Below, piece by piece: positions 83 through 13,054 of a DNA stretch of 64,000 bases; within the stretch, counting starts at the first letter, position 1; each line of letters begins with the position of its first letter. The position numbers and the translations under genes are program-made. This DNA is from Acidimicrobiales bacterium (lineage in GTDB: Bacteria; Actinomycetota; Acidimicrobiia; Acidimicrobiales; MedAcidi-G1): assembly GCA_029242745.1 (NCBI GenBank), contig JAQWTI010000016.1, forward strand, positions 1 through 64,000. The letters are read 5' to 3'. The notes below the pieces were generated by a model. That model did no database searches, had not been told where the DNA came from, and saw only the letters and a program-made list of their open reading frames with translations.

Positions 83-817
83 CTATTTCCAGCGCTCAGC
101 CAGCCGAATCGAAACTCCTCCTAGAAGTTGTTGTACCGGAGTCGACAAACCCTCTAGGACAACCCAAATTTCTTCAAGGCTTAAATCTTTTTCACTGAGA
201 CCAGCAGCAGGATTTGAAACCACCCCAATGGCCGCGTATGGCAAGTTGAGCTCTCTGGCGAGCGCCACTTCTGGATAACCAGTCATCCCGACAAGGTCGC
301 CTCCGAAACTTGCGTACATCTGAATCTCGGCAGCCGTTTCGAACCTGGGCCCATTTGAACAGACGTAGGTCCCACCATCTAAGAGTCCAATGCCCTCAGA
401 AACAGCTGTCTCCATCAGCAACCGCCGAAGATCGCTGTCATAAGGATCGGACATATCGGTATGTCGAACTTCTTCGTCGAAAAAAGTGTGGTCTCGGCCA
501 TGAGTGAACTCGATGAACTGATCAATCAGGACCAACTCGCCAACTCGGTATTTGGGGTTTATTCCGCCACTCACCGCCGTCGCGAGAATCGCCTCTACCC
601 CAACGTCATGGAGTGCCTGCAGATTGGCTCGATAGTTAATTCGATGGGGTGGTACACGATGACCTACCCCGTGTCGTGGAAGAAAGGCAACGGGACATCC
701 GTGCCAAACCCCCTGAGTGATCTGAACTAGACCAAATTCAGTCCCAACCTCTTGTGAACGAGCCTCCTCAATACCCGGGAGATCGTAAAAACCGCTTCCA
801 GTAATTAAGCCAAGCAC
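83..817 (-). CDS. mtnP: S-methyl-5'-thioinosine/thioadenosine phosphorylase
   Basis: Family 2 purine nucleoside phosphorylase of 244 aa. It splits a 5'-modified nucleoside with phosphate into the free base and (methylthio)ribose-1-phosphate in the cytoplasm. Visible family motifs are TGSGFY at residues 6-11, the phosphate-site PRHG (47-50), PPHRINYRAN (56-65), NGPRFET (155-161) and MTGYPEVALARE (178-189). The base-binding loop reads SNPAAG (201-206). Human MTAP has an Asp-x-Asp at this point, whereas Asn is what I recall for 6-oxopurine enzymes such as the Pseudomonas methylthioinosine phosphorylase. Methylthioinosine is therefore the likelier substrate, which fits the deaminase at 4275. The start codon is GTG with no clear ribosome site. 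It lies 45 bp after mtnA in the same direction, so the two are probably one operon. Family membership is certain; substrate choice is inferred. Confidence 0.9.
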   Translation of the reverse strand: MLGLITGSGFYDLPGIEEARSQEVGTEFGLVQITQGVWHGCPVAFLPRHGVGHRVPPHRINYRANLQALHDVGVEAILATAVSGGINPKYRVGELVLIDQFIEFTHGRDHTFFDEEVRHTDMSDPYDSDLRRLLMETAVSEGIGLLDGGTYVCSNGPRFETAAEIQMYASFGGDLVGMTGYPEVALARELNLPYAAIGVVSNPAAGLSEKDLSLEEIWVVLEGLSTPVQQLLGGVSIRLAERWK

Positions 818-862: not shown

Positions 863-1882
863 TCAGACTGAACTCAACGACTCCCCTTGGTCCAAGCGAA
901 CTACTCGCTGGTCCGTGACGATCGCAGTAATCAACCCACTAGGGGTCAGATCAAATGCTGGATTTATTGCTTCAGTATTGTTCGGAGTAGTCATGGCACC
1001 TCCAAACGAAATGACCTCCTGGCCATCTCGGTACTCAATTTCTATGTCGTCACCACTTGCCGTAGCCATGTCAATTGTCGATTCAGGAGCAACAACTATG
1101 AAAGGCACCCCGGCATGCTGGGCAGCCAGTGCCAGTGAGAACGTTCCAATCTTGTTTGCAGTGTCGCCGTTCGCAGCAATCCGGTCAGCGCCTGCAAGGA
1201 CTGCATCAACAATGCCTATCGAAATCAGATAGGGGCCGGCACCGTCCACGACCAATCTGTTTGGGGCCCCCATCCGTTGAAGTTCCCAGGTGGTGAGACG
1301 CGCTCCTTGAAGCAACGGGCGAGTTTCAAGCACAAGCGTTTCTTCGAGGGCAGCACGCTCATGCAGTGTTTGGACGACCGCAAGCGCGGTTCCTCGTTCG
1401 ACACTGGCAAGGCCTCCTGTATTGCAGATTGTAAGAATCCGATATGCACTGCGGCCAAAGGAAAGCTCGCTGACCAGATCAGCGCCACGAATTCCCATTA
1501 GTTCCGAAGCGATGATTTCCTCATCGCGAACAGCCAGTGCCTCCTCCAACGCGGCATCTGGACCTCTAACTGCAGCAGCTGCAACCCGGTCGACCATCTT
1601 TGCCAAGTTCACCGCAGTAGGACGTGCCATGCGAATGGTCTGCACAGCGTCATCAAATGCTGTGTTACCGGTACCGCATCTACGAGCCGCCAATGCAACT
1701 CCAAAACCACCAGCAACGCCGATAGCCGGTGCTCCACGCACCGAAAGTCGGCGAATGGCCGCTACCAGATCCGGAACGTTGGAAATCCGGATCGTCTCGA
1801 ATGACCCTGGCAGTCTCGTTTGGTCAACCATCACAATGGCGTCTTCAAGCCAATCAAGTGTTCTCGCACCAAGGCTCTGCAT
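863..1882 (-). CDS. mtnA: S-methyl-5-thioribose-1-phosphate isomerase
   Basis: Aldose-ketose isomerase of the eIF2B-like family, 339 aa, converting methylthioribose-1-phosphate (or 5-deoxyribose-1-phosphate) to the ribulose-1-phosphate. The sequence shows RGAPAIGVAGG (49-59), TICNTGG with the catalytic Cys153, the ETRPLLQGARLT block (186-197) and GADRIAANGD with the catalytic Asp233. Length and motifs are normal for MtnA. The ATG is preceded by GGAG at a 7-base distance. It is the first gene of a leftward pair with the phosphorylase and diverges from the aldolase-dehydrogenase gene at 2135, with 252 bp between them that probably hold both promoters. No MtnB, MtnC, MtnD or MtnK is visible, so the classical methionine salvage path is not encoded here. 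Confidence 0.95.
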   Translation of the reverse strand: MQSLGARTLDWLEDAIVMVDQTRLPGSFETIRISNVPDLVAAIRRLSVRGAPAIGVAGGFGVALAARRCGTGNTAFDDAVQTIRMARPTAVNLAKMVDRVAAAAVRGPDAALEEALAVRDEEIIASELMGIRGADLVSELSFGRSAYRILTICNTGGLASVERGTALAVVQTLHERAALEETLVLETRPLLQGARLTTWELQRMGAPNRLVVDGAGPYLISIGIVDAVLAGADRIAANGDTANKIGTFSLALAAQHAGVPFIVVAPESTIDMATASGDDIEIEYRDGQEVISFGGAMTTPNNTEAINPAFDLTPSGLITAIVTDQRVVRLDQGESLSSV

Positions 1883-2134: not shown

Positions 2135-4105
2135 ATGGAAAATCGGTGGAACCACTCGTTTGCAAAGACCCTTGAGAACTCCCTTGATGAGTGCGTCTAC
2201 GGGTCTCGACTCATCGGTTCAGACCCAGCCCTAGTTCTCCATGGTGGTGGGAACACATCGATCAAAGCCCCTTTCGATGACATCACCGGCAAAAGCGTCG
2301 ACGCTCTGTTCGTTAAGGGGTCGGGTTGGGACCTGGCAACGATTGAAAGACAAGGGTTCGCGCCTCTGAACTTGTCACGACTTCAAGATCTCTTGGCCCT
2401 TGACTCTCTGTCAGACCCTGAGATGATGCGCGAACTTGCCGCTTCGAGTTTCGACCCTGGTGCACCGGCGCCGTCGGTTGAGAGTCTTCTGCACGCTTAC
2501 ATCCCTCATCCAGCAGTGCTCCACAGCCACGCCGATGTAGTTGTCTCAATTACCAATACTGCTAACGGTGAAGAGTTCATCCGTTCCATCTTTGGGGACT
2601 CTGTCATTGTCATCCCCTACGTCATGCCTGGCTTCGAACTGGCGAAGATGGTCGCCTCGATATGGCCTACCCAGGCCCAGGACCACACAGTTGGGATGGT
2701 GCTCCTGAATCATGGACTGTTCTCATTCGGCCGAACAACAGCTGAGGCCTACGCCCGTCACCACGAATTAATATCGAAGGCTGAACACTGGCTTGACGAA
2801 TGCGCCCCGATTGAAACGACGACGGTCAATGATCTACCCCGGGTCGACAAACTCGCTCTAGCGGACCTACGAAAGAAAATCTCAGACTCAGCAAAGCAAC
2901 CGATGATCGTGTGCCGCCACACTGATCCTCTCTCGACCCGCTTTGTTCAACGTACAGACCTTGCAAGTCTCGCTACACGAGGTCCGCTTACGCCAGATCA
3001 CGTGATTCGAACGAAACGCGTCCCGATGATCGGCAACAACATCGACGCCTATGAGCGGGCGTACATCGAATACTTCAAACACTTCGAGGAGCGAGGTGGC
3101 AAAAACCTCGAAATGCTTGACCCGGCACCCCGTGTGGTAGTCGACAGTGATCTCGGTGTCCTAACTGCTGGTAGGACGATTTCTGAATCAGACGTCACCT
3201 TTGACATCTATAACCACACAATGTCAGTTCTCGAGCGTGCTGAGGACCACCTGGGCGGTTATGTGGCTCTTGAGCCAGCAGATATTTTCGATGTTGAATA
3301 CTGGGATCTTGAACAAGCCAAACTGCGCTTGGCAGGTCCACCACCTGCGCTTGCCGGAACCGTTGCTGTTGTAACCGGTGCTGCATCCGGGATAGGTCGC
3401 GCTTGTGCTGCCAGATTGCTCGCTAAAGGCTGTGCTGTATGTGGGATCGATATTGATCGTTCAGTGGAAACGTCCTTCGACACCCCTGCTTGGCTTGGGC
3501 TGAACGTCGACGTGACCGATGCCTTGGCTCAGATAGTTGCTCTGGAAAAGGCTGTTGACCGATTTGGTGGCGTTGACATTGTGATTCCAGCTGCCGGGAT
3601 ATTTGGCGTAGTTGCACCAATCAGCCAAATTGATGCGACCAACTTTCGGTCTGTTCAGGCTGTAAATGTCGACTCCGTTGTCAATCTTCTCCAAGCCGTC
3701 TACCCGTTACTAACTCGGTCGCCTATCGGTGGTCGTGTTGCAATCATCGGGTCAAAGAACGTTGCTGCGCCTGGCCAAGGAGCTGTGGCATATTCGGCTT
3801 CAAAAGCCTCCCTAGCGCAAGTGGGCCGGATCGCAGCACTGGAATGGGCTGAAGACGGGATCCGAGTCAATACCGTCCACCCAGACTCAGTATTTGACAC
3901 TGGGCTATGGACTGACGAGTTACTAGAAGAGCGCGCTGCAAAATATGGCTTGACTGTCGAAGCATACAAAAGTCGCAATTTGCTCAAGACTGAGATCACT
4001 GCAGCTCAAGTGGCCACCTTGGCCGTCGAACTTTGCACTGACACTTTTGCCAAGACGACTGGTGCTCAAGTTCCTGTTGATGGGGGAAACGATCGGGTCA
4101 TATAA
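2135..4105 (+). CDS. Class II aldolase fused to short-chain dehydrogenase
   Basis: Two-domain cytoplasmic enzyme of 656 aa. Residues about 10-260 are a class II (zinc) sugar-phosphate aldolase: HGGGNTS near residue 36, catalytic Glu in SVESLLHAY, zinc ligands H130 and H132 in HSHADVVV, and the third His in LNHGLFSFG. Residues about 405-652 are a classical SDR with TGAASGIG near 414, PAAG in place of NNAG, a Ser in IIGSKN and YSASK with the catalytic Tyr near 553. This architecture is known as rhamnulose-1-phosphate aldolase/dehydrogenase, giving DHAP and lactaldehyde. No rhamnose isomerase, kinase or transporter is nearby. The divergent mtnA-mtnP pair and downstream mtaD suggest instead that it cleaves 5-methylthioribulose- or 5-deoxyribulose-1-phosphate and then reduces or oxidises the aldehyde. 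The domain call is secure; the substrate is inference. Confidence 0.9.
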   Translation: MENRWNHSFAKTLENSLDECVYGSRLIGSDPALVLHGGGNTSIKAPFDDITGKSVDALFVKGSGWDLATIERQGFAPLNLSRLQDLLALDSLSDPEMMRELAASSFDPGAPAPSVESLLHAYIPHPAVLHSHADVVVSITNTANGEEFIRSIFGDSVIVIPYVMPGFELAKMVASIWPTQAQDHTVGMVLLNHGLFSFGRTTAEAYARHHELISKAEHWLDECAPIETTTVNDLPRVDKLALADLRKKISDSAKQPMIVCRHTDPLSTRFVQRTDLASLATRGPLTPDHVIRTKRVPMIGNNIDAYERAYIEYFKHFEERGGKNLEMLDPAPRVVVDSDLGVLTAGRTISESDVTFDIYNHTMSVLERAEDHLGGYVALEPADIFDVEYWDLEQAKLRLAGPPPALAGTVAVVTGAASGIGRACAARLLAKGCAVCGIDIDRSVETSFDTPAWLGLNVDVTDALAQIVALEKAVDRFGGVDIVIPAAGIFGVVAPISQIDATNFRSVQAVNVDSVVNLLQAVYPLLTRSPIGGRVAIIGSKNVAAPGQGAVAYSASKASLAQVGRIAALEWAEDGIRVNTVHPDSVFDTGLWTDELLEERAAKYGLTVEAYKSRNLLKTEITAAQVATLAVELCTDTFAKTTGAQVPVDGGNDRVI

Positions 4106-4274
4106 GAAACAGGCGATCGTCCGTCGCCTTGCCTCTGCACGGATCAGGTGCAACAGAGACCGTTCGACGGAGCCAGCAGTCACGGTACCGCTACCACGCC
4201 CGGGACCGTTAGCAACCAAGTTAAGTACAGATTTAAAAAGGGTTAACAACTAATGCACAGGAGGACCGGCGCCC

Positions 4275-5585
4275 ATGGCCCAAATTCACCCACAGCGGTT
4301 TGTCGCAGATGTGGTGGTGACATGTGATGCGGTCAACACGGTCTATGCCCCTGGCATAGTTGATGTAGAAGACGGAAAGATCCAGTGGGTCGGGCCAAAG
4401 GGCGATGCGCCAGAGGCAAATTCCGTTTTTGAGGAAAACGATGTCGGTGGTTTACTTATGCCCGGTCTCGTTAATACGCACTGCCACACGCCCATGACCC
4501 TCGTAAGAGGTGTCGGGGATGGCCTCCCACTCCAAAAATGGCTTACTGAAGCCATGTGGCCACGGGAAGGTCTCATGACATCTGAGGACGTGTGGTGGGG
4601 TATGACTCTCGGATCCGCCGAAATGCTTGAGCGAGGCGTCACAACAAGTTGCGAGATGTACCTCTTCGAGGAAGCAATTATTGACGCTGTTCAACAAACA
4701 GGTGCACGCCTGGTGATGACACCTGTTGTTATTTCTGAAAGTGGTCGAAGCCTCAGGAAATACATCAAAGATCTCACCGAGTTGTACGAAGATCACCACA
4801 ACCCGACAGGCCGGACGACAATTGGAGTCGCCGCCCATTCCGCCTACAACTTGGGCATCAATCCTGTTGCAGAACTTGCTGGCTTAGCTCGCTCACTAGA
4901 CACCATCTTTCACCTTCATCTAGCAGAAACTCAACAAGAGAGCGCCGACTTGGAAAGACAGTTCGGCCAGTCCATTACCCAAATTCTTTATAACCATGGT
5001 GTTCTCGATGGCCAGGTTCTTGCTGCCCACAGCGTTTGGGTTGACCAGGCAGATATCGATTTGATGGCAGAGACTGGGGTAGCGGTCGCCCACTGCCCAG
5101 TCAGCAATATGAAACTTGGATCCGGGATTGCCCCCCTCCTTGATCTAAGGGCTGCAGGAGTGACCGTTGGCTACGGAACTGATGGTCCAGCATCAAACGA
5201 CTCTCTTGACCTCTGGGAAGAAGTCAAGATTGCTCCACTCTTAGCAAGAGTTCGGGCGTTGGACTCAACTGCTGTAACCGCAGCCGAAACACTGGCTATG
5301 GCGACACGCGAAGGAGCTAGCGCCCTCGGGCTGCATAACACCGGCAGTCTCATAGCTGGAAATGTCGCCGACATAATCCGTATCGACCTGAATCAGAGCA
5401 CATTCGTCCCAGTAACTAGCCCAGATGAATTAATTGCCCATCTTGCTTGGTCTGGATCAAACCGACTGGTTACCGATGTCTGGGTAGCCGGAAGACAGGT
5501 TGTGGTTGACGGCGGTGTCCAGACGGTGGATACCGAAAGAGCACAGGCGCAGGTCCAAGAACGGGCTTTTCGCCTTGCTGGATAA
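4275..5585 (+). CDS. mtaD: 5-methylthioadenosine/S-adenosylhomocysteine deaminase
   Basis: Amidohydrolase of the MtaD/ATZ-TRZ family, 436 aa, expected to deaminate methylthioadenosine, 5'-deoxyadenosine or S-adenosylhomocysteine to the inosine form. Metal ligands are seen in NTHCHTPM (HxH after MPGLV), the HLHLAE strand, AHSVWV and GTDGPASND. The substrate region GVGDGLPLQKWL and AHCPVSNMKLGSG are typical of the family. An AGGAGG lies about 10 bases before the ATG. It follows the aldolase-dehydrogenase gene by 169 bp on the same strand. With a phosphorylase of the methylthioinosine type at the other side of the cluster, it gives the first step of a consistent pathway. Other deaminases of this family, acting on guanine or triazines, fit the motifs less well. 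Confidence 0.88.
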   Translation: MAQIHPQRFVADVVVTCDAVNTVYAPGIVDVEDGKIQWVGPKGDAPEANSVFEENDVGGLLMPGLVNTHCHTPMTLVRGVGDGLPLQKWLTEAMWPREGLMTSEDVWWGMTLGSAEMLERGVTTSCEMYLFEEAIIDAVQQTGARLVMTPVVISESGRSLRKYIKDLTELYEDHHNPTGRTTIGVAAHSAYNLGINPVAELAGLARSLDTIFHLHLAETQQESADLERQFGQSITQILYNHGVLDGQVLAAHSVWVDQADIDLMAETGVAVAHCPVSNMKLGSGIAPLLDLRAAGVTVGYGTDGPASNDSLDLWEEVKIAPLLARVRALDSTAVTAAETLAMATREGASALGLHNTGSLIAGNVADIIRIDLNQSTFVPVTSPDELIAHLAWSGSNRLVTDVWVAGRQVVVDGGVQTVDTERAQAQVQERAFRLAG

Positions 5586-6484: not shown

Positions 6485-7261
6485 ATGAATGACAACCGCA
6501 ACAAGTCGGCAACATCAGGTACCGATTACTCAGCAGGTCGACCTGTAAAGGTTGCTGAGTCGGTTGCACGCCAGATTCTTGAGGATGTCATCGAGTTGGG
6601 CTACAAACCGGGCACAAAACTCCCAGTCGAATCTGAGATGGTGAAAACGTACGGCGTCGCTCGGGGGTCGCTCCGCGAGGCCCTCAGGATTCTTGAAATC
6701 CACGGACTTGTCAGGATTAAGCCAGGACCCGATGGAGGTCCGGTCGTTGCTGACATCACCAGCAAAGACATCGCCCAGACCCTTGCCTTCTTTTTCCGAG
6801 CCTCAAAAGTAACGTTCAAGGAGGTCATGGAAGCGAGGCTGATACTTGAACCAGTAATGGCCCGGCAAGCCGCTGAACGGCGAAATCCAGAGATTCAAAC
6901 TGCACTTCGAAACAGTATTGATCGCTCACGAGCGGGCCTGGAAAGCCACGAAACTGACGACGAATACCGCCAGACAGCGGCTGGATTCCACGAAATAATC
7001 ACTGGGACTACAGGCAACTCAGTCCTTGACCTCTTAACTGGTTCTCTCAAAGAAATCTATTCGGCTCGCTTTCATTCATTTGTCTACACCTCCGACGAAC
7101 GTAAAAAACTTGTCGACGATCACGAAATAGTTGCTCAAGCCATTATCTCTGGGGATTGCGCCCAGGCTGAGGCTCTGATGCGTGCCCATATGGAAGACTG
7201 GATCAGCCTATTTTCAGAAAGGTTCCCTGATTTCTTGGATGAACCCATCAACTGGTTCTGA
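6485..7261 (+). CDS. GntR-family transcriptional regulator, FadR subfamily
   Basis: DNA-binding regulator of 258 aa. Residues about 20-90 form the winged helix of the GntR family, with the typical YKPGTKLPVESEMVKTYGVARGSLREALRIL pattern split as PGTKLPVESE and SRGSLREAL-like ARGSLREALRIL. Residues about 105-245 are the all-helical FCD effector domain, with the metal-site residues expected in EARLILEP, the central FHEIITG and the late DHEIVAQAI. FCD regulators usually bind organic acids or sugar acids and often control the adjacent catabolic genes. It lies last in the rightward run from 2135 and next to the leftward atuA pair, so both flanking sets are candidate targets. I found no convincing operator half-sites. 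Confidence 0.9.
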   Translation: MNDNRNKSATSGTDYSAGRPVKVAESVARQILEDVIELGYKPGTKLPVESEMVKTYGVARGSLREALRILEIHGLVRIKPGPDGGPVVADITSKDIAQTLAFFFRASKVTFKEVMEARLILEPVMARQAAERRNPEIQTALRNSIDRSRAGLESHETDDEYRQTAAGFHEIITGTTGNSVLDLLTGSLKEIYSARFHSFVYTSDERKKLVDDHEIVAQAIISGDCAQAEALMRAHMEDWISLFSERFPDFLDEPINWF

Positions 7262-7340: not shown

Positions 7341-7652
7341 TCAAACTGAGGATGAAATCTCCATGTCGAGGATCAGCGATTGGTAGGACTTGCCGTGAGG
7401 GTCGGCACGAAGACTCCTCGAAACCCCACCAGCCAGCGCCTGTGTCATGACGAAGTTGAGGCCCTTGGTGCCAGGCAGTTCATACCGGACTATGTCGCCC
7501 TTTACGAGATCCCCGAAGGTATCTCGCACCCGATCGACTGTGACCTCACTACGTATGGTCTCCCAGTGGATGTCCTCATAGGCGAATACACAGATATTGG
7601 ATATATCTCCCTTGTCGCCTGACCGGCTGTATGCGATCTCTCGAAGTTTCAT
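7341..7652 (-). CDS. AtuA C-terminal-domain protein
   Basis: Small protein of 103 aa equal to the C-terminal domain of acyclic terpene utilisation protein AtuA. The signature is the early ARSGDKG-like SRSGDKGDISNICV segment, followed by a mixed alpha/beta fold ending in SLRADPHGKSYQSLIL. In Pseudomonas AtuA this domain is part of a longer chain; here it is a separate gene that overlaps the end of the N-terminal partner by 4 bases (ATGA type), which implies translational coupling and a complex. Its molecular role is not established. It is translated second in a two-gene operon read leftward. Confidence 0.8.
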   Translation of the reverse strand: MKLREIAYSRSGDKGDISNICVFAYEDIHWETIRSEVTVDRVRDTFGDLVKGDIVRYELPGTKGLNFVMTQALAGGVSRSLRADPHGKSYQSLILDMEISSSV

Positions 7653-8980
7653 GTGTCAACCACCTCTGTCCAGATTTTCACATCGTCTCTTGGCAGGAAC
7701 GCTGGTGTTACCCCGACAGCAGGAACGATCTGGGTCACAACACCCCCTCCTCCAGCTGGACCCATCCATAAGTACTGGCTTTCGAAGGACACAGCATTGG
7801 CTACCTCACGGTCTTGACATAGGGCAGCGATCCGGAGCCTGACCTCTGCGGGTTCATCTCGAGACAACTGGTGGTTGAAGAGTGCACTTACCCCGTGCAG
7901 GTCGTAACGGATCTCACTGATGCCTGAGTTGTAGGGCTCAAGGCGCTTGGCGACGACCTCGGCAGCAAGCTGAGCTCTGCTGACGCAGCCGGAGCCCCCG
8001 TAAGAGATCTCGGTGACAACCTTCCAGCCTTCATCGACTCCGACCAGAACCTTCAGGTCATCTGGCCGTGGCTGACCGGTAGCGCCGCCAATCCGAACCT
8101 GGTTGGGTCCTACTTCTTCTACCCAGACATTGCTGAAATTTGATGTGCTGTCCGGGGTGAGATAGGCGCAGGGGTCGTGTATTTCGTATGCAAGTTGGGT
8201 CTTGACTACACCAGTGTCTATCGCCCCTCCAGTCCCAGGAAGTTTGGTGATCAAAGATTCGTCATCACTGACGTGGGCTATTGGGAACCCCAGATGGGCG
8301 ATGTCGTCAAGAACCCGGTAAGGAGGATCAACGTAGTTTCCGCCTGTGCCATGAGTTCCACATTCGAGTAGGTGAGCTACAAGGGTGGCTGCAGCCATTT
8401 TTTCCCAGTCGTCAACTGCCCAACCAAGTTCATAGGCAATGGGACCAACGAATAGTGAGGGGTCAGCGATCCTCCCCCCGAGAATAAACTGGGTGCCCTG
8501 TTCCAAGAGTTCCACAATGGGTTCAGCGCCAATATAGGCATTTGCCGAGACCAACTTCTCGCCAAGATCAAGCACGCTGACGCCCATTTCGGGCAACTCA
8601 AGATTTTGATTTCTTACGTGATCGAGAACGTCATCTCCATAGATGGCTCCGATCCGAACACCGGAGACACCCGTTGTTCGTAGGCCCCGTAAGACGTCGT
8701 CCAATGCTGCTGACGGATTTGCGGCACCAAAGTTACCCACGATGTTCCCACCTGATGACAGGTAACTAGCGAATCGTTCCATGAGCTCAGGAATCCGTTG
8801 GTCCTGACCACAACTTTCATCATCTCGGCGTCGGATTTGCGCCAGCGCCATCGTCCGTTCCGCAAGGCAGTCAAATCCCATGTAACTAACTAGACCGCTG
8901 TCGGCAAGTTCTTGAGCCCAGTCAAGACGATCATCAGACCATGCTGAGCCACATCCAATGGAAATTCGCTTAGTCATCAT
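7649..8980 (-). CDS. Acyclic terpene utilisation AtuA family protein (DUF1446)
   Basis: Cytoplasmic protein of 443 aa matching the large N-terminal domain of AtuA. Recognisable parts are the opening ISIGCGSAWSDDR, LVSYMGFDCLAERTMAL, the GGNIVGNFGAANP loop, GRIADPSLFVGP and the GTGGNYVDPPYR segment. AtuA-type proteins occur with CoA-dependent degradation of citronellol, leucine-like acids and other branched substrates, but no reaction has been firmly assigned. Two tandem Met codons (8980 and 8977) can start it, with GAAG just upstream. The gene diverges from the amidohydrolase at 9167 over a 186 bp AT-rich gap. Context points to a degradation cluster of unknown substrate. Confidence 0.82.
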   Translation of the reverse strand: MMTKRISIGCGSAWSDDRLDWAQELADSGLVSYMGFDCLAERTMALAQIRRRDDESCGQDQRIPELMERFASYLSSGGNIVGNFGAANPSAALDDVLRGLRTTGVSGVRIGAIYGDDVLDHVRNQNLELPEMGVSVLDLGEKLVSANAYIGAEPIVELLEQGTQFILGGRIADPSLFVGPIAYELGWAVDDWEKMAAATLVAHLLECGTHGTGGNYVDPPYRVLDDIAHLGFPIAHVSDDESLITKLPGTGGAIDTGVVKTQLAYEIHDPCAYLTPDSTSNFSNVWVEEVGPNQVRIGGATGQPRPDDLKVLVGVDEGWKVVTEISYGGSGCVSRAQLAAEVVAKRLEPYNSGISEIRYDLHGVSALFNHQLSRDEPAEVRLRIAALCQDREVANAVSFESQYLWMGPAGGGGVVTQIVPAVGVTPAFLPRDDVKIWTEVVDT

Positions 8981-9166: not shown

Positions 9167-10429
9167 ATGATCAGCAAAACGGGCCCACTTGACCAATTCA
9201 AGATCATTGACTGCGATGCACACTTCACTGAACCACCAGAATTGTGGACGGCACGAGCGCCAGCCACGATGTTGGACAAGGTTCCAGTCCAACGCACCGT
9301 AGATGGAAGAACTGCTTGGTATCTCAACGAAGAGGTTTGGTCAACCACAGGTGGGAACACTATTCAAAACGGTCAAAACAAGATCTTGGGGACACACGTA
9401 GTTCAACCTTTTGAAGATGTTGATAGCAGTTCTTACTCAGTTAAAGATCGACTTAATCTCTGCGATCAAATGGATATCTACGCTCAAATTTTATATCCAA
9501 ATGGTATCGGCTTTGCTTCTAATCATATTTTCTCAATTGAGAATCTTTCCCAGCGAAAAATGATTCTAGAAATCTATAATGACTTCTTCGTAGATGTGCA
9601 AGAAGAAGGAAACAACCGGCTATACCCCCAGGCAATGCTGCCGATCTGGGATATGGAATTTACCGTCACCGAGATGACCCGGCTCATTGACAAGGGAATT
9701 CGCGGTTTTACCCTTTCCGACAAACCAGAAATGATCGGTCTTCCTGAACTCTGGGAGCCCTATTACGAACCGATGTGGGACATCTTCAATGAGTCTGGAG
9801 CTGTAGCAAACTTCCATATTGGAGCTGGCATGAGTCGTGCGGAGATGGAAGATATCCGGGGATCACGCGACAGGCAGGCCAAAGTTGGTGGTGAAGCAGG
9901 AGCCAGTGACGGTTCTCTCCGTCCAATCCCAACTAAAGCCCCAACTTACTGGAGTCAGTTTGGGCACCAAAGACGTCTGGCAATTCATGCAACCCAGATG
10001 TATATGAGCAACGTTCGGATCATCACCAACCTCTGCATGAGTAATCTTTTCGACCGTTACCCAAAGCTCAACATCGTGTCTGCAGAGAGCGGAATAGGTT
10101 GGATCCCCTTCATTCTTGAAGCACTGGAATATCAATTTGACGAAATGATTACTGAGTCCGATGAGCTTTTGTCAACACAGCGCAGACCAACAGAATATTT
10201 TCGGGATCATCTCTATGTGATGTTCTGGTTTGAGCAGTCAGCCCCAGCCAAATTGATCCCCGAAGTAGGGATCAACAACGTCCTAGTTGAAACTGATGTT
10301 CCCCACCCGACATGCCTCTTCCCATCTACCCGGGAGCACTTTGAGAGAGTCTTGGCAGATGTTGACCCAGCGGTTCAACGCCGGGTGCTGCAAGACAACG
10401 CTGCAGAACTCTACGACATAGCTATCTAG
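9167..10429 (+). CDS. Amidohydrolase family protein (TIM-barrel, ACMSD-like)
   Basis: Metal-dependent hydrolase or decarboxylase of the amidohydrolase-2 family, 420 aa. The N-terminal IDCDAHFTEPPELW motif, NFHIGAGMS in the middle, SAESGIGWIP and the late ETDVPHPTCLFP supply the metal and substrate residues typical of the group. Members act as decarboxylases or ring hydrolases on aromatic and cyclic acids, so the exact reaction is open. It is first in a tight rightward series with an LLM oxidoreductase 20 bp downstream, then aldehyde dehydrogenase and SDR. The base composition of the first 700 bases is more AT-rich than its neighbours. Confidence 0.82.
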   Translation: MISKTGPLDQFKIIDCDAHFTEPPELWTARAPATMLDKVPVQRTVDGRTAWYLNEEVWSTTGGNTIQNGQNKILGTHVVQPFEDVDSSSYSVKDRLNLCDQMDIYAQILYPNGIGFASNHIFSIENLSQRKMILEIYNDFFVDVQEEGNNRLYPQAMLPIWDMEFTVTEMTRLIDKGIRGFTLSDKPEMIGLPELWEPYYEPMWDIFNESGAVANFHIGAGMSRAEMEDIRGSRDRQAKVGGEAGASDGSLRPIPTKAPTYWSQFGHQRRLAIHATQMYMSNVRIITNLCMSNLFDRYPKLNIVSAESGIGWIPFILEALEYQFDEMITESDELLSTQRRPTEYFRDHLYVMFWFEQSAPAKLIPEVGINNVLVETDVPHPTCLFPSTREHFERVLADVDPAVQRRVLQDNAAELYDIAI

Positions 10430-11575: not shown

Positions 11576-13054
11576 ATGACAACTAACGACCCATATGAGC
11601 ACATACGGAACTGGATACCCGAGACTCGCAATCTTCTGATCGGGGGACGTGAGGTCACTCCTGAAGGTGCTACTTGGGAAGTTGTTAATCCCGCCACTGA
11701 AGCCATAATCGCAGAAGTGGGTGGGGCATCAACCCATCAGGTCGATGCTGCCGTTCAAGCAGCAAGAGCGGCCTTTGGCCCCTGGTCCCGACTCTCAGGT
11801 GAAGAGAGGAGCCGGCACCTCCACCGGCTTGCCGACACCCTCGAGGAGGCGCAAGACCGGCTCCTTCCTTCGATTGTTAACGAGGTCGGCACTCCGGTCT
11901 CGCTGGCCTCCTATCTACAAGTCAAGATGGCGGTCGAGGAACATCTCCGTTTTGCAGCTGAAGCAGCAAAGGTAGACCGCACTGTCCACCTAGGTGAGTA
12001 TCACTTACCCCATCCCACGATGAGCGACGTGGTCTATGAACCAGCCGGCGTGGTGGCGATCATCACGGGTTACAACTACCCACTCAACCTAGCGATCTTC
12101 AACTTTGGTGGAGCCCTGGCAGCTGGCTGCACAGCGGTAATCCTTCCATCGCCGCGTACCCCGATCACCACGTTATTGCTCGGAGAACTCATTCGAGAGT
12201 CCGGCCTACCAGAGGGCGTTTTGAACGTCGTAGTTGGCGAGATGGAAGTCGGCAAACACCTCTCATCACACCCTGGCGTTGATCGGGTGTCATTTACTGG
12301 GTCCGACACTGTCGGTGAGAAAATAATGGAACAGGCGGCCAGAAACTTGGCTGGCATCACCCTCGAGTTGGGTGGCAAATCGCCAAGCATCGTCATGCCA
12401 AGCGCAGATGTGCAGAGCATCGCAATGGAAATGCACCTTCGGTGGGCCCGAAACGGTGGGCAGGGTTGTGCAGCCCTTGCCAGACTTTTGGTGCACGAGA
12501 GCCGGTATGACGAGTTCCTAGACGCTGGAGCTGGAGCCTTCGATCAGATGGTGGTGGGGGATCCATGGGACCCAGCAACCAACGTGGGCCCCATGATCCG
12601 ACCAGATCACCGTGCACAAGTCGAAGGTTTCGTTACAGAGGCACTGGATTCAGGGGGGGTGAAACTTCTCGAAGTCAACAAACCACTCCCCAGTAAGGGA
12701 TACTTCGTCAACCCGGTCTTACTTGGAAATCTGCCACACACCGCGCGCGCTGTCCAAGAGGAAATCTTTGGGCCAGTAGCTGTAATCCTGCCCTTTTCAA
12801 CAACAGAAGAGGCCCTCGAAATGGCTAATGACACCGTGTTCGGGTTGGCCGCGAATGTGTGGAGTGAAGATGCCAATGAGGCTCGGCACATGGCTGAGCA
12901 AATTCGTGCCGGCACCGTGTGGATCAATGGCGGGGGTGGGATGCGAGGTGATGCACCCTTTGGTGGCTACGGCCGTTCGGGGATCGGCCGACAGCTCGGT
13001 GAGTGGGGTGTTCGCGAGTACCAGGAAGTGAAACACATCCAGTGGAGGATCTAG
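11576..13054 (+). CDS. Aldehyde dehydrogenase family protein
   Basis: NAD(P)-dependent aldehyde dehydrogenase of 492 aa. Catalytic Cys298 lies in GGQGCAA, the general base Glu264 in LELGGKSP and the transition-state Asn167 in TGYNYPL. EEIFGPV and the C-terminal GGYGRSGIGR are also in place. One departure is seen: the usual VVLKPSE strand reads VILPSPRTP, so the Lys that contacts the cofactor ribose is Leu190. The enzyme would oxidise an aldehyde produced by the upstream oxygenase to an acid, which the CoA-transferase pair could then activate. A start codon ATG follows GCGGGAGCAAAGC. Substrate unknown. Confidence 0.92.
   Translation: MTTNDPYEHIRNWIPETRNLLIGGREVTPEGATWEVVNPATEAIIAEVGGASTHQVDAAVQAARAAFGPWSRLSGEERSRHLHRLADTLEEAQDRLLPSIVNEVGTPVSLASYLQVKMAVEEHLRFAAEAAKVDRTVHLGEYHLPHPTMSDVVYEPAGVVAIITGYNYPLNLAIFNFGGALAAGCTAVILPSPRTPITTLLLGELIRESGLPEGVLNVVVGEMEVGKHLSSHPGVDRVSFTGSDTVGEKIMEQAARNLAGITLELGGKSPSIVMPSADVQSIAMEMHLRWARNGGQGCAALARLLVHESRYDEFLDAGAGAFDQMVVGDPWDPATNVGPMIRPDHRAQVEGFVTEALDSGGVKLLEVNKPLPSKGYFVNPVLLGNLPHTARAVQEEIFGPVAVILPFSTTEEALEMANDTVFGLAANVWSEDANEARHMAEQIRAGTVWINGGGGMRGDAPFGGYGRSGIGRQLGEWGVREYQEVKHIQWRI

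Follow-up and report, generated by a model that had tools for sequence, protein, structure and literature searches.

An aldolase-dehydrogenase fusion encoded beside mtnA in an Acidimicrobiales bacterium: a probable oxidative DHAP shunt for 5'-deoxynucleoside salvage

The DHAP shunt of R. rubrum and extraintestinal E. coli consists of MtnP or MtnN-MtnK, the isomerase MtnA, and the aldolase Ald2, and its counterpart in Bacillus thuringiensis consists of DrdK-DrdI-DrdA. Each of these systems uses a single-domain, FucA-like aldolase to which no aldehyde dehydrogenase is fused. Two entry variants of the shunt have been described, one that uses a phosphorylase and one that uses a kinase (PMC10986504, PMC6079011). 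In Pseudomonas aeruginosa, methylthioadenosine (MTA) is deaminated before phosphorolysis (PMC6302742). A protein in which a class II aldolase is joined to a dehydrogenase has been characterised from rhamnose metabolism: RhaEW of Chloroflexus aurantiacus (Ca_RhaEW) yielded DHAP and lactate with NAD+, had no activity with NADH, and released no DHAP when NAD+ was omitted (PMC3870299).

We analysed a window of 64,000 nucleotides from an Acidimicrobiales bacterium (GCA_029242745.1, contig JAQWTI010000016.1, positions 1 to 64,000), which starts at base 1 of the contig, so that any genes farther upstream are cut off. The original prediction had placed an aldolase fused to a short-chain dehydrogenase (SDR) beside mtnA, with the catalytic residues kept in both domains, and both statements held. 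A single ORF at 2135..4105 (+) encodes a bifunctional class II aldolase/short-chain dehydrogenase of 656 aa, in which Pfam recognises an Aldolase_II domain (residues 28-217; 2216..2785, +) and, within an SDR domain (residues 409-652; 3359..4090, +), adh_short_C2 at residues 415-651. The mtnA gene lies 252 bp away and is divergently transcribed. By homology, the aldolase half has zinc ligands H130, H132 and H193 and the catalytic acid E116, and the SDR half has a GxxxGxG motif at 415-421, D439 of the NAD type, and N511-S540-Y553-K557. Across 62 family representatives, E116, H130, H132, H193, D439, N511, Y553 and K557 were invariant, and S540 was replaced by Thr in a single representative. The AlphaFold2 model of the fusion was confident (pLDDT 91.4, pTM 0.89). 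Among solved structures, the closest to the aldolase half was the N-terminal aldolase domain of a Thermoplasma acidophilum protein, 3m4r (44% identity; target-normalised TM 0.94), and the SDR half resembled many solved SDRs in the structure search. More than 80 other genomes encode the fusion at full length, which excludes an assembly artefact.

The protein matched the NCBIfam model NF006196 (PRK08324.2-4) at 907.8 bits against a cut-off of 831, with residues 1-656 aligned to profile positions 1-657, and we conclude that it is a full-length member of this family. The entry is named "bifunctional aldolase/short-chain dehydrogenase" and gives neither substrate nor pathway, and we found no tested activity for any member in the literature we searched; the pathway proposed below comes from gene context. 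Members occur in Actinomycetota, Pseudomonadota, Cyanobacteriota, Chloroflexota, Verrucomicrobiota and Planctomycetota. The claim that this type of fusion is known only for rhamnulose-1-phosphate therefore needs amending, since the family is already catalogued, although under an entry that has no specific function. As a separate observation, the approximately 190 residues between the two catalytic domains (residues 218-408; 2786..3358, +) match no Pfam domain, are predicted to be folded, and contain conserved motifs in the family alignment, RGPxTPDHVIRTKR and EYWDLEQAKL, with invariant TPDH and EYWDLEQ stretches.

The neighbouring genes supply the other steps of a shunt. MtnA, S-methyl-5-thioribose-1-phosphate isomerase, is encoded at 863..1882 (-) and scored 341.7 bits with TIGR00512 (cut-off 279). 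Two further genes in the flank went unmentioned in the original prediction. The first, at 83..817 (-), encodes a 5'-deoxy/5'-methylthio-nucleoside phosphorylase of the methylthioinosine-phosphorylase type: it scored 243.6 bits with NF006599 (cut-off 223), while its 249.1 bits with TIGR01694 (MTAP) fell under the cut-off of 274.85. Its best PDB match was 3ozb, which we take to be the P. aeruginosa MTI phosphorylase. The two proteins have an Asn in common (SNPAAG/VNPAAG) where archaeal MTAPs have Asp (VTDYD), and Asn at this site presumably goes with 6-oxopurines. The second gene, downstream of the fusion at 4275..5585 (+), encodes an MTA/SAH-deaminase-like amidohydrolase. Its best model was NF006549, at 334.6 bits and below the cut-off of 540, and its PDB neighbours were 4dyk, 4gbd and 4f0r, the last of which is named 5-methylthioadenosine/S-adenosylhomocysteine deaminase. 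Other Acidimicrobiia carry relatives of this amidohydrolase in the corresponding cluster. The Asn-type phosphorylase site with its 3ozb match, and the resemblance of the deaminase to 4dyk and 4gbd, liken this pair to the P. aeruginosa MTA deaminase and methylthioinosine phosphorylase; to our knowledge, that route has not been found coupled to an aldolase-dehydrogenase. By analogy, the pathway in the window probably starts with deamination as well.

Compared with the DHAP shunt, the window contains a phosphorylase, MtnA, and a class II aldolase with zinc ligands and catalytic acid, and the isomerase and the phosphorylase or kinase options in the family are the same. The difference lies in the aldolase, which here is fused to an SDR; a single-domain aldolase of the Ald2/DrdA type was absent from the genome. 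We considered whether a second aldolase might run the shunt and rejected this candidate, because the two other Aldolase_II proteins in the genome are both adducin-type and not FucA/DrdA.

We asked how consistently the fusion occurs with mtnA. Among 198 Acidimicrobiia genomes, all 17 with the fusion carried mtnA, compared with 33 of the 181 others (Fisher p 6e-12, a value that takes no account of kinship); in two of the 17 the fusion was split over contigs. We also scanned public genomes, recovering 80 relatives of the fusion from many phyla. Because longest-frame ORF calls in the GC-rich loci merge adjacent frames, we relied on homology searches for the neighbouring genes. MtnA was encoded within the examined flank (up to 10 kb) in 32 of the 80 loci and less than 400 bp away in 24. 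These linked loci span Actinomycetota, Pseudomonadota and Planctomycetota, and mtnA was upstream, downstream or divergent. In the other 48 loci, many of them from Gammaproteobacteria and Cyanobacteria, mtnA lay outside the flank (up to 10 kb). It was found elsewhere in the genome for 39 of these and was undetected in nine, many of which are incomplete MAGs. With these results, we conclude that the link between the fusion and mtnA is real. Neighbour clustering over 6 kb brought out no fixed neighbour for the members without a linked mtnA; loci L079, L082, L091 and L094, along with other gammaproteobacterial and cyanobacterial loci, are examples that have neither mtnA nor a conserved neighbour nearby.

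The clusters around the relatives gave further information on the pathway. In five proteobacterial loci (L078, L083, L086, L093 and L100), mtnP, apt, mtnA and the fusion gene occur together, in the order mtnP-apt-mtnA-fusion in Betaproteobacteria, where apt would serve to reuse released adenine. In two other loci (L098 and L042), ABC transporter genes, mtnA, the fusion gene, mtnK (TIGR01767, 402 bits), a second mtnA and a split transketolase gene are clustered. The ABC genes there are of the sugar type, and two different mtnA paralogues flank the fusion and mtnK (1538-11795 in L098). The clusters of Acidimicrobiial relatives include a BMP/PnrA-type binding protein of a nucleoside-type ABC transporter, an ABC ATPase, a permease, and a relative of the deaminase. 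One Acidimicrobiial locus, L035, has a pair of nucleoside-phosphorylase genes beside the fusion (3412-4137 and 2554-3384), one of them uridine-phosphorylase-like. Taken together, the relatives' clusters correspond to the phosphorylase and kinase entries described for the DHAP shunt, except that the fusion stands in for the single-domain aldolase. The repeated occurrence of the fusion gene near mtnA, as well as near mtnP or mtnK, in different phyla thus supports a shunt-type role, as originally proposed.

The genome, which is about 95% complete, also bears on which nucleosides would enter the pathway. We found no MtnD (acireductone dioxygenase, PF03079), which is required for universal methionine salvage, and no match to the spermidine synthase family; radical SAM matches numbered about ten, and the only PNP_UDP_1 protein found was the one beside mtnA. 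Given that level of completeness, this gene content points to 5'-deoxyadenosine as the chief substrate arising inside the cell; MTA may come from other sources or from outside. As only one nucleoside phosphorylase was found, the salvage cluster appears to be the sole route for such nucleosides in this organism.

From this context we infer the following substrates and order of steps. 5'-Deoxyadenosine from radical SAM enzymes, MTA, or both would be deaminated to the inosine form by the 4275..5585 protein, and the phosphorylase would then release hypoxanthine and 5-deoxy- or 5-methylthio-ribose-1-phosphate. MtnA would isomerise the latter to the corresponding ribulose-1-phosphate, which the aldolase half would split into DHAP plus either acetaldehyde or methylthioacetaldehyde. 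Before the aldehyde could escape, the SDR half would use NAD+ to oxidise it to the acid, acetate or methylthioacetate, and this oxidation may pull aldol cleavage forward, as the precedent of Ca_RhaEW suggests. Most likely, then, the substrate of the fusion is 5-deoxy- or 5-methylthio-ribulose-1-phosphate, and the protein that cleaves it also removes the reactive aldehyde product by oxidation. Putative physical channelling between the two sites is plausible. We assign a probability of roughly 0.7 to the reading that the cluster serves 5'-deoxynucleoside salvage by an oxidative DHAP shunt in which aldehyde oxidation is built into the aldolase. Counted against it are the 48 of 80 loci with no mtnA in the flank, the deaminase scores, which lie under the family cut-offs, and the presence of MtnD in some family genomes (8 of 49).

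The same pathway could instead end in an alcohol, methylthioethanol or ethanol, if the SDR used NADH to reduce the aldehyde. This is the reaction of the separate alcohol dehydrogenases of R. rubrum and E. coli. Alcohol/carbonyl pairs are the usual substrates of SDRs, and the N-S-Y-K tetrad of this one is complete. Further, E. coli builds up ethanol from 5-deoxyribose in aerobic growth (PMC10986504). Against reduction, the characterised fusion made lactate with NAD+ and was inactive with NADH, and by analogy we favour oxidation to the acid. The direction may not transfer from Ca_RhaEW, however, because N511 is invariant in this family and its position is occupied by Met, Leu or Phe in the fusions linked to rhamnose isomerase (RhaI). 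On balance we consider a reductive ending unlikely. The original prediction had left the product as methylthioethanol, ethanol or the acid; the acid is the part that we retain, and the alcohols are disfavoured.

We next considered whether the protein is a rhamnulose-1-phosphate aldolase/lactaldehyde dehydrogenase, RhaEW. The two share domain order, zinc ligands and the SDR Ser-Tyr-Lys residues, DHAP-releasing chemistry is expected of both, and the fusion is 31-36% identical to RhaI-linked fusions. In contrast, its score with the RhaEW model TIGR02632 was 426.1 bits, under the cut-off of 567.75, and its context is mtnA rather than rhaI. RhaI was present in all 27 RhaEW genomes but in only 8 of 49 NF006196 genomes, and family searches of the genome under study found neither RhaI nor RhaA, in agreement with the earlier statement that rhamnose genes are absent. 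A phylogeny against rhamnose fusions had been named as the analysis that could overturn the shunt interpretation, and it did not do so. In a tree of 87 fusions, eight RhaI-linked rows and one other split from the rest (SH-aLRT 99), 70 rows holding NF006196 grouped together (SH-aLRT 100), and the fusion of the window fell outside the RhaI-linked group, among Acidimicrobiial rows that are mostly mtnA-linked. The position of E116 is mostly D in the RhaI-linked rows, a second difference in addition to N511. One genome, G058, carries both kinds of fusion, one beside RhaI and the other on a contig with mtnA. Considering score, gene context, co-occurrence and tree together, we reject a RhaEW identity as largely refuted and give it very little weight.

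It is similarly improbable that the aldolase half is an MtnB-like dehydratase feeding classical oxygen-dependent methionine salvage: MtnB, a homologue of class II aldolases, has the same substrate, but MtnD is lacking here and in 41 of the 49 family genomes, and fusion to an SDR suits release of an aldehyde and not dehydration.

Each of the three elements, namely the fused domains, the DHAP shunt and the NF006196 model, was already known. In the literature we searched, no paper was found that placed this fusion family in the DHAP shunt or tied it to mtnA, though an earlier mention is possible. This gene pairing, found again in several bacterial phyla, points to a role for a large enzyme family to which none has been assigned, and it provides a testable substrate and pathway for a widespread family that NCBI names by its domains only. 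More tentatively, and at somewhat less than even odds, NF006196 as a whole could form a cross-phylum, one-protein end to an oxidative DHAP shunt, in which the aldehyde passes directly from aldolase to dehydrogenase and leaves as acetate or methylthioacetate, replacing the volatile-alcohol route and oxygen-dependent methionine salvage. If our reading is correct, an oxidative branch would be added to the DHAP shunt, and disposal of the radical SAM by-product and of MTA would be tied to central carbon with a gain of NADH. It would also raise the question of the fate of methylthio sulphur as methylthioacetate.

Elsewhere in the window, we observed a pair of genes encoding AtuA and an AtuA-ferredoxin-like protein at 7341-8980 (-), with genes for a GntR regulator (6485-7261), an Amidohydro_2 protein (9167-10429) and an aldehyde dehydrogenase (11576-13054) nearby.
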